Part shown: piece after piece, positions 4,542 to 36,063 of the stretch
Position numbering within the stretch: the first letter of the stretch is position 1
Layout: every line of letters begins with the position of its first letter
From: a virus
DNA length: 56,614 nucleotides
Virus record (IMG/VR): IMGVR_UViG_3300005537_000031
Coordinates: 1 to 56,614 of that record
Direction: 5' to 3' (one strand)
Translations under genes and position numbers: made by a program
The notes under the pieces: generated by a model
Database searches by the model: none
The model's input: the letters and a program-made list of their open reading frames with translations, nothing else
Told to the model about the DNA's origin: nothing

Positions 4542-5075
4542 TTAGCTGATAGTCGTGGCCGGATTCGCCGCCGACACCATGGTCGTGGCTCCAACCACCG
4601 CCCCGGCAATCGTGCAGGCCAGAGTCACGTCGGGAATCTTGTCCCCGCCGGAGTCTCGCGTGCTGATGGTCAGGTTCGCGGTGCCGAGGGTGTAGGTCAC
4701 TGTGCACGAACTGCCGGAGGTTGAACCCACGGCCACCGCCGGACCGTCGGAGGACACGGTGTAGGTGCAGCGGGAGGTGATGTCCACAGGCGGCGTGGAG
4801 CTGTCAAACGTCTGGAACGTCAGCGTATCGGTCCCAGGGATGGATTTCAGAGAGGTTTGTGCCATGTTGATTACTCCTGTGTCGGAAAAGATTCTGGTAC
4901 TGGCGCGCCCACGCGGATGCGATGTCAGGATGCGGAGGATTTGCTCCACACGCGATGCTATCCGTCGCAGCTCGTGCCGGATTTCTTCAATATCATTCGG
5001 CTTGGAATTTCTGTGTCTTGTCACGAGGGGATTGTAACGCAGGACACGCTGGATTAGATGTCTTATTTTAAACAT
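4542..5075 (-). CDS. Ig-like virion protein with N-terminal coil; possible internal start
   Basis: The full frame has 177 codons. Residues 1-70 are basic and helical (a short coiled coil around residues 28-50). Residues 71-177 are Thr/Ser/Val-rich beta structure typical of an Ig-like decoration domain. An ATG at 4865 has a strong Shine-Dalgarno site (AGGAG, 8-nt spacing), while the first ATG at 5075 has none and would depend on coupling to the gene ending at 5088. The Ig domain may therefore also be made alone, as a 107-residue product. The full frame is kept because a 220-base gap would be odd in this compact operon. Confidence 0.6.
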   Translation of the reverse strand: MFKIRHLIQRVLRYNPLVTRHRNSKPNDIEEIRHELRRIASRVEQILRILTSHPRGRASTRIFSDTGVINMAQTSLKSIPGTDTLTFQTFDSSTPPVDITSRCTYTVSSDGPAVAVGSTSGSSCTVTYTLGTANLTISTRDSGGDKIPDVTLACTIAGAVVGATTMVSAANPATTIS

Positions 5076-26744: not shown

Positions 26745-26780
26745 ATGGTGACTCTCTCATATTAAAAAGAGAGTCACCAT
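26745..26780 (+). promoter_or_regulatory. Perfect 13-bp hairpin covering a start codon
   Basis: ATGGTGACTCTCT (26745-26757) pairs fully with AGAGAGTCACCAT (26768-26780) across a 10-nt loop. The right arm includes the AGAGAG ribosome-binding site and the first two bases of the ATG at 26779. In an mRNA read through from the helicase gene it would hide this start. T4 homing-endonuclease genes use the same device. Confidence 0.7.
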
Positions 26781-27303
26781 GAACGAAAAACGTTGCAATA
26801 AATGTGGAGAAACTAAGTCAGCATCAGAATTCGGGCTCAGAGTTAGAAACGGTAAATCGTATTTGATGCCCAGATGTAAGCCTTGTAGGTATGTCGAGGC
26901 TCGCAAATGGCGAGCGGCTAATCCCGATAAGGTGAGAGAGCATGGAAAACGCTGGAGAACCTCCAATCCCGATGCCGTGAAGCGACTAAAGAAGCTATAT
27001 CGGCTTCACCATCCTGATCGGGTAAAAGCGCAGATAAAAGCCTCTTTAGCGAAACGCTGGGAAGATAAGTATAAGCCAGAGCGTTGGCGAAAATGGCTAC
27101 GAACTAAATATGGGATTACTGAGGAACATTTCGATGATCTGGTCAAGAAGCAGCACAATAAATGCGCTATCTGCAAGAACGGACAGAGCCAGGGGCCGCG
27201 CCGGCGGGAAGAAGCAACGGGAACTGGAGACAGGAGATTGTTCCAAGGCAATAGAACAGGTATTGAACGGGTGGCTAGAGATGGAAGTGATGAATGTGGT
27301 TAG
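26779..27303 (+). pseudogene. Truncated endonuclease VII / HNH-type homing endonuclease
   Basis: Residues 1-60 have a CNKCGETK...CKPC zinc pair and repeats of the R-x-x-NPDxVxx type, as seen in free-standing phage HNH proteins. Near residue 112 stands KYGITEEHFDDLVKKQHNKC followed by AIC, the start of the endonuclease VII core. The catalytic Asp-His and Asn half is missing: after about 27183 the frame reads as a shadow of another coding frame. The enzyme is therefore probably inactive and fused to the remnant of an older gene. Its start is within a strong hairpin. Confidence 0.65.
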
Positions 27304-27393: not shown

Positions 27394-27416
27394 ATGTGGG
27401 CGGGAGCGGTGAATAT

Positions 27417-28469
27417 TCACGCCGACGGTGGAGCATTATTCATGATTATCCATTTCAACTGCTTCAATTCAGCGGCGGGAGCATACCGGCTTACCCAGTC
27501 GGACACCTCAGTCATCTCGTTTCCACACTTCTTACAACATTTACGAGGTGTGATTGGCTTCTGTGAGGCGTTGGTTACAGTATCAACCTCCTCTGTAACT
27601 GACGCCTCGGCAGCCGCCACTCCATCTTCAACTTGCAACGTGTCCTCATCCAGCAGGAGGTCTTTCTTGAGCATCTGGCCGTGGGAGCGGATGAGCCGGA
27701 GGTTGTTGGCTACTAGTTCGATCTGTGCGCAGGTCTCAGGCGACTTAGGAGGGCGGTGGGACATTACCTCCTTCACTCCCTCGCGGATGTATCCTCCCGG
27801 CTGGACGGAATGTGTGTTGCATCCAGGCGCCACGCCACGGGCGAGGGCTGAGAAATACAGCTCCCCCCACCAGAGGACGCGAGCGGCAAGGCGGAAGCGT
27901 CCGGGATCGAGGCCGTGGTCGGAAGTCTCAATGGTGACGTGGGATATTGCGCCGGTGCCGGGGCGGGGATCTCTGAATTTCTTTATCCACTGTGAAATGG
28001 ACTGGTTGAAGGCTTGGATTTCCTCGCGGGAGGGGACGGTATCTTGGCTGGGAAGGTGCATGTATATGCAGTGGTACTGCTTCAGCGTTCGCATATACGG
28101 CTGGTTGTCCCAGAACTTTGTGATACGTTCCTCAGAGAGCCGAGGCGCGCAATCATGGCAGGTCTTCAGCCTGCAAGTGCGATGCTGCTCCTCTGTCTGG
28201 TCGGGATGGTCCTTGCAGCGGAAGAACCGCTTGGAGCCGCATTCGTCGGCGCGTCGGGATTTGGACTCCAGACCGAGGGCGAATAGGGCTTTGGCGAAGG
28301 GGGACTTGGGCTGCCATATGGATTGCGTCTCGGATTCCAGGGCGAGCATGATCTCCTCGTGCGAGGGTTCAGGCGCGCGGCAGGGCTGCACGGAGTCGAG
28401 GGAGGGGTCGTTGATTAAGGGGAGGGCGGGTGTAATCGACGTGCGAGGGGTGTTGCATGCGGTTTGCAT
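27417..28469 (-). CDS. Counter-oriented zinc-binding protein, Rep-like layout
   Basis: A 350-residue protein read against the surrounding early genes, with ATG at 28469 and an AAGGA site. A Cys/His cluster (RCKDH, then CRLKTCHDC, about residues 83-107) precedes a strand and helix, then residues about 170-215 (SHVTIETSDHG, RFRLAARVLWWGE). A second zinc pair (CCKKCGN) lies near 316. The order zinc motif, strand, helix, strand recalls rolling-circle Rep_1 proteins, but the HUH histidines are absent, so this is a weak likeness. It stands behind a large palindrome. The opposite-strand frame is Ser/Arg-rich and looks like a shadow. Confidence 0.6.
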   Translation of the reverse strand: MQTACNTPRTSITPALPLINDPSLDSVQPCRAPEPSHEEIMLALESETQSIWQPKSPFAKALFALGLESKSRRADECGSKRFFRCKDHPDQTEEQHRTCRLKTCHDCAPRLSEERITKFWDNQPYMRTLKQYHCIYMHLPSQDTVPSREEIQAFNQSISQWIKKFRDPRPGTGAISHVTIETSDHGLDPGRFRLAARVLWWGELYFSALARGVAPGCNTHSVQPGGYIREGVKEVMSHRPPKSPETCAQIELVANNLRLIRSHGQMLKKDLLLDEDTLQVEDGVAAAEASVTEEVDTVTNASQKPITPRKCCKKCGNEMTEVSDWVSRYAPAAELKQLKWIIMNNAPPSA

Positions 28470-28590
28470 ACACTTTAGTCCTTTCTGATTGTAAGAACCC
28501 GTTTTTGGGAGCTTGCACTAATCCTCTCAGAAAACGGGTGGGGAAGCAGGTTACCCCACTTCCCCGGTTCTTATCGAAAGGACGTGTATG
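28467..28590. repeat. 124-bp imperfect palindrome with inner hairpins
   Basis: Arms pair as CATACAC (28467-28473) with GTGTATG (28584-28590), GTCCTTTC (28478-28485) with GAAAGGAC (28576-28583), and TAAGAACC (28492-28499) with GGTTCTTA (28566-28573). Inside are ACCCGTTTT/AAAACGGGT (28497/28531) and GGGGAAG/CTTCCCC (28540/28559). The left arm holds the start and ribosome-binding site of the counter-oriented gene. The right arm mirrors them and ends in a four-codon MFPL frame. It may be a cruciform origin, or a leader that hides the start of its gene. Confidence 0.75.
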
Positions 28591-28634
28591 TTCCCGTTGT
28601 GAGATTAAGCAGGAGAGGGAGAGGTTGTCAAGCC

Positions 28635-28703
28635 TCTAAGGTAATTTTTATTTGATCTAAGGTGATTTTGTTGTTGCGGGGGAGTATCCCGTTGTGGTAG
28701 GTT
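28635..28703 (+). promoter_or_regulatory. Promoter with two upstream motif copies
   Basis: TCTAAGGTGATTTTGTT at 28656 matches the element at the main early promoter, and a shorter copy (TCTAAGGTAATTTTT) stands 21 bases earlier at 28635. The -35-like TTGCGG (28674) is at the same distance. GGGAGTATCCC (28680-28690) is the exact reverse complement of the operator-like element at 22948. The -10 box is weak (TAGGTT at 28698). A start near 28710 would give an almost leaderless mRNA. Confidence 0.6.
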
Positions 28704-28711
28704 ACCAACTT

Positions 28712-29614
28712 ATGCCGAAGATTAAATACCAAGATATAAACTTCAAATCGGGGTCGCTGGCCCTGATTGCCAAGGCCAATGAGATCATCGCCAGCTATCA
28801 GTCCCAAGGGTATGACCTGACACTCCGGCAGCTATACTACCAGTTTGTGTCCCGCGATATTATCCCCAATACCCAAGCCAGTTACAAGAATCTCGGCAGC
28901 GTGGTCAATGATGCGCGCTTGGCCGGGATGATCGACTGGAACGCGATTGTGGATCGCACACGAGAGTTGCGGAGCCTGCCTCACTGGAGTAATCCGGGCG
29001 ACATCGTGGATAGCTGCTCGAAGCAGTTCAATATCGACAAGTGGAAGGATCAGAAGTACCGCCCGGAGGTATGGATCGAGAAAGATGCCCTAGCAGGAGT
29101 ATTTGAGCGCGTATGCAATGAGTTGGATGTCCCATTGTTCTCCTGCCGGGGATATACCAGCCAGAGTGAAATGTGGGTCGGCGCACAGCGGATGCTTCGG
29201 TATCGCAAGCAGAAGCAGATTCCAATGATCCTGCATTTTGGCGACCACGATCCTAGCGGCAAGGACATGTCGCGGGACATTCAAGATAGGCTGTGCCTGT
29301 TCACTGGCCGGGAGATTGAATTTGAGCGGCTGGCCCTGAATATGAATCAGGTTGAGGAATATGATCCGCCGCCGAATCCAGCGAAAGTTACTGATTCGCG
29401 TGCTAAGGGTTATATCGCTGAATTCGGTGATGAGAGCTGGGAACTGGACGCGCTGGAGCCAAGTGTACTGGAGGAGTTGGTTCGCGGAGCTATTGCTAAG
29501 GTGGTAGACGCTGACGTGATGGATGCTGCCGATGAAGAACAGGATCGTCATCGTGAGACGCTACGCCTGATATCCGAGAGATTTGACGATTGTGAAGAGT
29601 TGGTGAGGGAATGA
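28712..29614 (+). CDS. Spo11/Top6A-like protein with TOPRIM domain (Mini-A-like)
   Basis: Start ATG 28712 gives 300 residues; a GTG at 28694 is possible. Residues 36-48 read DLTLRQLYYQFVS: the Arg-x-x-Tyr-Tyr pattern of the winged-helix domain carrying the cleavage tyrosine in Spo11 and topoisomerase VI subunit A (Tyr42/Tyr43). A TOPRIM domain follows, with Glu124 (WIEKDALAG) and the Asp-x-Asp pair D179/D181 (GDHDPSG). No B subunit or GHKL ATPase is encoded nearby. Stand-alone A-subunit homologues of mobile elements have been called Mini-A. The protein may nick or cut DNA for replication, recombination or relaxation. Confidence 0.75.
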   Translation: MPKIKYQDINFKSGSLALIAKANEIIASYQSQGYDLTLRQLYYQFVSRDIIPNTQASYKNLGSVVNDARLAGMIDWNAIVDRTRELRSLPHWSNPGDIVDSCSKQFNIDKWKDQKYRPEVWIEKDALAGVFERVCNELDVPLFSCRGYTSQSEMWVGAQRMLRYRKQKQIPMILHFGDHDPSGKDMSRDIQDRLCLFTGREIEFERLALNMNQVEEYDPPPNPAKVTDSRAKGYIAEFGDESWELDALEPSVLEELVRGAIAKVVDADVMDAADEEQDRHRETLRLISERFDDCEELVRE

Positions 29615-35744: not shown

Positions 35745-35748
35745 CTTC

Positions 35749-35812
35749 GATGGGTTGTAGGGTAGGTAGGGCTGGAACCCCGCACCGGGCCGTGCAACTC
35801 GGCCAACCCATC
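35749..35812 (+). ncRNA. Short tRNA-like fold without a D-arm
   Basis: GATGGGTT (35749-35756) pairs with AACCCATC (35805-35812), stacked without a gap on a 5-bp arm GGCCG/CGGCC with a 7-nt TGCAACT loop (35788-35804), as in an acceptor plus T-arm. Inside, GGG-CTGGAAC-CCC resembles a short anticodon arm (GGA). There is no room for a D-arm. It may be a tRNA mimic or part of a longer structured RNA. Confidence 0.35.
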
Positions 35813-35854
35813 ACAGGTTTCCAGCAGGGGAGCCGACTCTCCTTTTCTCCCGTA

Positions 35855-36017
35855 ATCTCATATGTGAGATCAGGACGGCGATGATCCTGTTGGATTGATG
35901 ATTCCAGCAGCCACCGTGCGACTGCCTGCTCTGGCGATTCCGGTGGCTGCTGGACGTGGGGACAGGAAACACCGCCTGCGGCATCCGCACCCCCGGGTGG
36001 TGCTCCTTCCTCGGTTT
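35855..36017 (+). ncRNA. Highly structured intergenic region
   Basis: Successive hairpins: ATCTCA/TGAGAT (35855-35870), CAGGA/TCCTG near 35871-35889, a perfect 13-bp stem CCAGCAGCCACCG/CGGTGGCTGCTGG (35904-35916 and 35941-35953), and GCACC/GGTGC near the end, before a T-run. With the tRNA-like fold upstream, almost the whole 319-base gap between genes is base-paired. It holds no open frame. A phage non-coding RNA or a complex leader is likely. Confidence 0.5.
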
Positions 36018-36063
36018 TTATTAGTAATTATTTAACTATCTATTTCTATTAAGGAGATTCACC

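Follow-up and report, generated by a model that had tools for sequence, protein, structure and literature searches.

A palindromic 5′ leader predicted to hide the translation start of a counter-oriented phage gene, and its fold in a relative with different sequence

An imperfect palindrome of 124 bp lies at positions 28467–28590 of the window, by which we mean the whole stretch of DNA analysed here, a virus record of 56.6 kb. We consider it probable that this palindrome is the 5′ leader RNA of the gene P0001, predicted to close its own ribosome-binding site (RBS), and that P0001 is translated only once this structure has been opened or processed. As judged from the two genomes compared, the structure is conserved in a relative through compensating changes. 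RNA structure is known to sequester the RBS of T4-type homing endonuclease genes and of T4 soc, e and others (PMC2988022), and T4 gp32 and gp43 have established autogenous operators (PMC3014915), so this kind of control is already known. No family recovered in our searches covers the predicted three-way junction, its conservation free of sequence, or the gene itself.

The terminase-like gene is located in the left part of the window on the minus strand, and replication genes lie mid-window, mainly on the plus strand; they encode helicases, a DNA polymerase, and proteins like endonuclease VII and topoisomerase. P0001 is a single minus-strand gene inside this plus-strand block. It points away from the topoisomerase-like gene (28694–29614), and the palindrome occupies part of the divergent gap between both genes, ending at the start codon of P0001. 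The features of this locus are as follows.

27417–28469, minus strand: gene P0001, 350 amino acids, N-terminal half Cys-rich and zinc-finger-like, core of beta-alpha-beta-beta-beta-alpha order, without family match
28467–28590, minus strand: structured leader, predicted three-way junction with closing stem P1 and hairpins P2 and P3, RNA fold z −6.5
28584–28590, minus strand: 5′ strand of P1a, CATACAC, 7 bp with GTGTATG at 28467–28473, which contains the start codon ATG (28467–28469)
28576–28583, minus strand: 5′ strand of P1b, GTCCTTTC, anti-Shine-Dalgarno-like, 8 bp with GAAAGGAC at 28478–28485
28566–28573, minus strand: 5′ strand of P1c, TAAGAACC, 8 bp with GGTTCTTA at 28492–28499, absent from the relative
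28479–28482, minus strand: Shine-Dalgarno sequence (SD) AGGA, within P1b, 9 nt ahead of the ATG
28540–28565, minus strand: hairpin P2, GGGGAAGTGGG-GTAA-CCTGCTTCCCC, 11 bp including two G·U, 4-nt loop GUAA
28500–28536, minus strand: hairpin P3, CGTTTT/AAAACG and a distal part with an internal loop
28603–28631, minus strand: promoter-like element, TTGACA (28631–28626), 17-nt spacer, poor −10 sequence TTAATC (28608–28603)

A sequence-only reading of this DNA had described the palindrome as three arm segments with two inner hairpins. Both are found in the predicted fold, and the outer coordinates are exactly those of the first and last paired bases. The closing stem comprises segments of 7, 8, 2 and 8 bp, the 2-bp step being located between P1b and P1c. 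In agreement with the same reading, the SD (AGGA, 28482–28479) and the ATG (28469–28467) lie in one arm of the palindrome. The other arm was said to carry a mirrored ATG followed by a four-codon frame, and this frame is indeed present (28588–28602, plus strand, ATG TTC CCG TTG TGA). It has no counterpart in the relative, however, and was rejected as an element of its own; it probably just results from the symmetry, which trivially produces it.

On the minus strand, the 146-nt segment around the leader folds with −60.6 kcal/mol, compared to −35.1 ± 3.9 kcal/mol for shuffled sequences (z = −6.5; none of 200 shuffles as good). A scan of both strands of the window in 130-nt windows with a step of 20 nt ranks the leader, on the strand of P0001, as the top GC-corrected fold (z −4.24, next −3.54). 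Among the riboswitch and leader families of Rfam, no curated threshold is exceeded by the leader, the best weak match being PK-repBA (E 0.48), and a scan for intrinsic terminators flags none at the palindrome.

According to the prediction, a stable RNA stem pairs the SD and the start codon. Making the AUG and the 18 nt before it single-stranded would cost 16.8 kcal/mol for the window and, for the relative, 13.4 kcal/mol. Most other starts tested in the window require 3–11 kcal/mol, with a few as high as that of the leader. These similar opening costs of other genes weigh against the leader reading, although 4440 and 7667 are located within densely packed coding DNA. Due to the high cost, very little translation of P0001 is to be expected as long as the stem stays closed.

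The relative is the IMG/VR contig IMGVR_UViG_3300020121_000067 (56,400 bp), which is collinear with the window at about 70–94% DNA identity over most genes. Its P0001 homolog displays 64–65% amino acid identity and adjoins the same topoisomerase-like gene (93%). Protein scans and a DNA-pattern scan for further carriers of P0001 returned this one viral contig only, with no hit among genomes, plasmids and deposited phages; relatives reached via the topoisomerase-like gene (L004–L010) have no P0001 homolog. The leader locus of the relative is contained in the piece L001.

Aligned to each other, the two leaders are at chance level, with 70 of 94 positions identical, 39 gap positions, and a mean of 70% for shuffled sequences. 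The loops differ completely. Nevertheless, positions 4882–4995 of L001 fold as one three-way junction at the same place (z −4.85), and none of 1000 shuffles is as stable. A single three-way junction spanning the segment is formed by 9–12% of shuffles, which makes the topology by itself weak evidence, although its strength is unmatched among them. P2 has 11 bp and a 4-nt loop in both phages, and all 11 pairs are kept: six are identical, inclusive of both wobbles (U·G and G·U), five show two-sided changes, and none is broken. In the lower stem of P3, kept in the relative, two further pairs have changed on both sides; in P1b one has, and the UCCU/AGGA pairing is retained there. P1a is nearly all different in sequence, yet paired. 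Loss of compensating changes in relatives, which the sequence-only reading had named as speaking against such a structure, is not what this one relative displays. In both phages the 3′ strand of the closing stem holds the SD (AUAGGAG in the relative); the stem stops at the AUG in the relative, whereas in the window the AUG is included. A covariance model for which only the window served as input, run with filters off, ranks the leader of L001 first in its region (12.2 bits, E 0.006); the same model with default filters finds nothing in the whole contig of the relative. As the predicted shape is shared by leaders that differ in nearly all of their letters, it is apparently the folding itself that matters.

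The adjoining coding sequence behaves differently from the leader. The first 120 nt of the P0001 gene are 91% identical between the two phages, and codons for identical residues are conserved in 26 of 30 cases among the first 40 positions, versus 114 of 185 in the remainder. The start of P0001 is unusually conserved in nucleotides, with CCGCATGCAACACCCCTCGCACG identical at 28440–28469 (minus strand) of the window and at 4992–5025 of L001. An alternative hairpin, GTATGC...GCATGC with the AUG inside, is possible in both phages. At the other end of the gene, a perfect palindrome, GTGAATATTCAC, is found at the stop codon (around 27409–27420), and the relative has it at the same place too. A plus-strand open reading frame antisense to P0001 (27394–28488, 364 amino acids) was considered as the real gene in place of P0001; its frame is interrupted in the relative, and it is therefore probably not a gene. 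Differences from the relative at codon positions 1, 2 and 3 of the P0001 frame number 82, 66 and 142, position 3 varying most.

Whether the palindrome acts as RNA or as DNA bears on a second proposal of the sequence-only reading, namely a replication origin (cruciform or hairpin) next to its initiator gene. Folded as DNA, the palindrome is also strong (z −6.4), which would suit an origin. However, the mRNA sense of the leader contains two G·U pairs in the window and four in the relative, those of P2 being conserved, and its fold is more stable than that of the antisense, by a small margin in the window and by a clear one in L001 (−53.6 vs −47.6). No change in GC skew is associated with the locus, and the loops, as stated above, are wholly different between the relatives. 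A motif of the promoter-like element, TTGACAACC, is conserved upstream of the structure, at a distance of 41 nt in the window and 40 nt in the relative. A consensus promoter scan gives nothing at threshold at this site; by its sequence, the promoter-like TTGACA would begin an RNA just 5′ of P1. In the same divergent promoter region, the sequence TCTAAGGTRATTTT occurs twice, 21 bp apart, at 28635–28669, and is operator-like. Transcription of the leader together with its gene is the hypothesis that fits best.

The origin proposal also depends on the nature of the P0001 product. Searches of P0001 against Pfam, PHROGs, NCBIfam and PADLOC yield nothing above cut-off (Zn_Tnp_IS91 is a weak match, E 0.68), and a sequence search of the PDB yields no match. 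The cysteines C77, C85, C99, C104, C107, C311, C312 and C315 are conserved between both homologs. The AlphaFold model is poor (mean pLDDT 48), the core at residues 131–237 being better, mostly 60–85; refolding of the core by itself gives no higher confidence. In this low-confidence model, the core elements follow the order beta-alpha-beta-beta-beta-alpha. Several of the structure matches in BFVD are replication initiators, and among PDB entries the core model matches 2x3g best (E 1.4e-3), the HUH endonuclease of SIRV1 (PMC11253617). Foldseek relates P0001 to Rep proteins at E values of about 1e-3 to 1e-2, with ribosomal protein S6-like folds scoring equally well, and in VIA-align S6-like folds match the core as well as or better than Rep-type folds.

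P0001 resembles the HUH Rep proteins (SIRV1 Rep, microvirus Rep, IS91 transposases) in that a Cys-rich N-terminal region precedes a core of beta-alpha-beta-beta-beta-alpha order, and in adjoining a palindrome. Unlike these, it lacks a significant family match, and its leader has no conserved loops. The HUH motif is not found in either homolog, as the strand that follows the conserved Glu contains no H-x-H (FRLAARVLWWG vs FRFRLGATIFWWG), and the catalytic tyrosine expected in the next helix is not conserved, Y227 of the window protein being different in the relative. As P0001 lacks both the HUH motif and a conserved tyrosine, and S6-like folds match equally, we do not call it a Rep protein. The weak Rep-like signal of the modelled fold leaves an origin as a small possibility; taken with the features of the DNA above, we regard it as unsupported and very improbable. 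A related and quite speculative idea, which we also consider improbable, is that P0001 is a phage-domesticated, catalytically dead zinc protein of Rep/HUH fold that recognizes the shape of its own leader and not the sequence, so that RNA and protein would evolve rapidly together and only the geometry would be held constant.

The other proposal of the sequence-only reading, in which the leader blocks the translation start it contains, is better supported: the structure is kept via two-sided changes, the SD is buried again in the relative, and TTGACA lies upstream in both phages. We hypothesize that the RNA starts a few bases to the right of the palindrome, probably at the TTGACA promoter, and that the leader folds into the predicted three-way junction conserved in the relative, whose closing stem would pair the SD, and in the window the AUG too, with its 5′ strand. 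Ribosomes would be kept from loading, and P0001 protein would consequently be made only once the stem is opened or removed. The stem might be opened by a bound protein, possibly the P0001 product, or by cleavage of the long helix by RNase III; alternatively, transcripts might begin within the structure. The leader would act like the T4-type RBS-hiding leaders that silence accessory nuclease genes.

Two more specific versions of this leader hypothesis can be distinguished. In the first, which we hold to be possible but not likely, control is autogenous: the leader would be a putative operator for the zinc-finger-like P0001 product, which either stabilizes the closed state or blocks the ribosome. 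A conserved, Cys-rich protein with a nucleic-acid-binding-like fold is consistent with this, as are the conserved U·G/G·U step in P2 and the precedent of gp32 and gp43 in T4 (PMC3014915). By predicted fold, P0001 shares with these two systems a structured leader near or overlapping the RBS of a gene for a nucleic-acid-binding protein. However, the operators of gp32 and gp43 consist of a pseudoknot or a small hairpin with a conserved loop, those of gp43 conserving much of the loop (PMC3014915). In contrast, the sequences of loops and helices in the P0001 leader are not conserved despite a protein that is 64% identical, and binding is putative.

In the second version, an unlikely one in our view, long transcripts from upstream fold into a silent state, and a promoter within the palindrome yields a short RNA with a free SD. 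This is the arrangement of T4 I-TevI, segB and mobE (PMC2988022), and a hexamer TACAAT is present in the 3′ arm of the window, just ahead of the SD. However, this internal-promoter candidate is found in the window only, the 3′ arm of L001 containing no matching hexamer; about 22 kb upstream of P0001 are without an obvious minus-strand gene to supply read-through; and conserved instead is the TTGACA just upstream of the structure.

Strong structure is found elsewhere in the same phages, in part around the neighboring gene on the other side of P0001.

26745–26780, plus strand: second start-hiding hairpin, perfect 13 bp with the ATG in its 3′ arm, z −4.87
26779–27303, plus strand: endonuclease VII-like gene (PHROGs, E 1e-14), adjoining P0001

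The start of this gene has the highest opening cost among the starts tested, and a device of this sort at a neighbor of P0001 speaks for the leader hypothesis. Its protein looks truncated, with a Pfam match at positions 2–36 of 82 that is below the curated cut-off, and the gene is unmatched in the relative, where another short gene is found at that site.

Further away, an intergenic region (window 35745–36063, plus strand; positions 615–790 of L013 in the relative) contains strong hairpins in both phages (z −8.24 in L013). No clear sequence conservation is seen there except for TGATGATTCC ahead of one hairpin, no match to Rfam is obtained, and the downstream gene seems to have an unpaired SD. 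This region is possibly a non-coding RNA or another structured element. Its existence means that strong structure in a gap is not unique to the leader of P0001 and, as it is structured and divergent with a free SD, that strong structure need not imply translational control. The leader of P0001 may, by analogy, have no regulatory role on its gene and be one of several divergent intergenic hairpins involved in RNA stability or transcription pausing, or serving as a nuclease or packaging signal. We regard this as distinctly unlikely, as the leader of P0001 is singled out by burial of its SD in both phages, with a closing stem that reaches up to the AUG.

The start-hiding leader proposed here has its closest precedent in the leaders by which T4-type homing endonuclease genes (I-TevI, segB, mobE) and T4 soc and e conceal their RBS. 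In both cases, here by prediction, a stem in a phage leader buries the SD of an accessory gene, and here an endonuclease-like neighbor has a hairpin as well. The T4 leaders, however, are single hairpins, whereas that of P0001 is a three-way junction of 124 nt. P0001 furthermore differs in being counter-oriented with a promoter-like site of its own upstream, in a structure that is kept while the sequence turns over, in a product that is not a recognized nuclease, and in having no mapped internal late promoter.

If this explanation is right, the three-way shape of an RNA element is kept between collinear phages while nearly all of its letters change, and sequence searches would miss such a shape-only element. 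Start-hiding leaders would then extend from the single hairpins of T4-type endonuclease genes to a larger junction in an unrelated group of 56-kb phages, and the leader of P0001 could readily serve as a reporter to learn how such a lock is released in the course of an infection.
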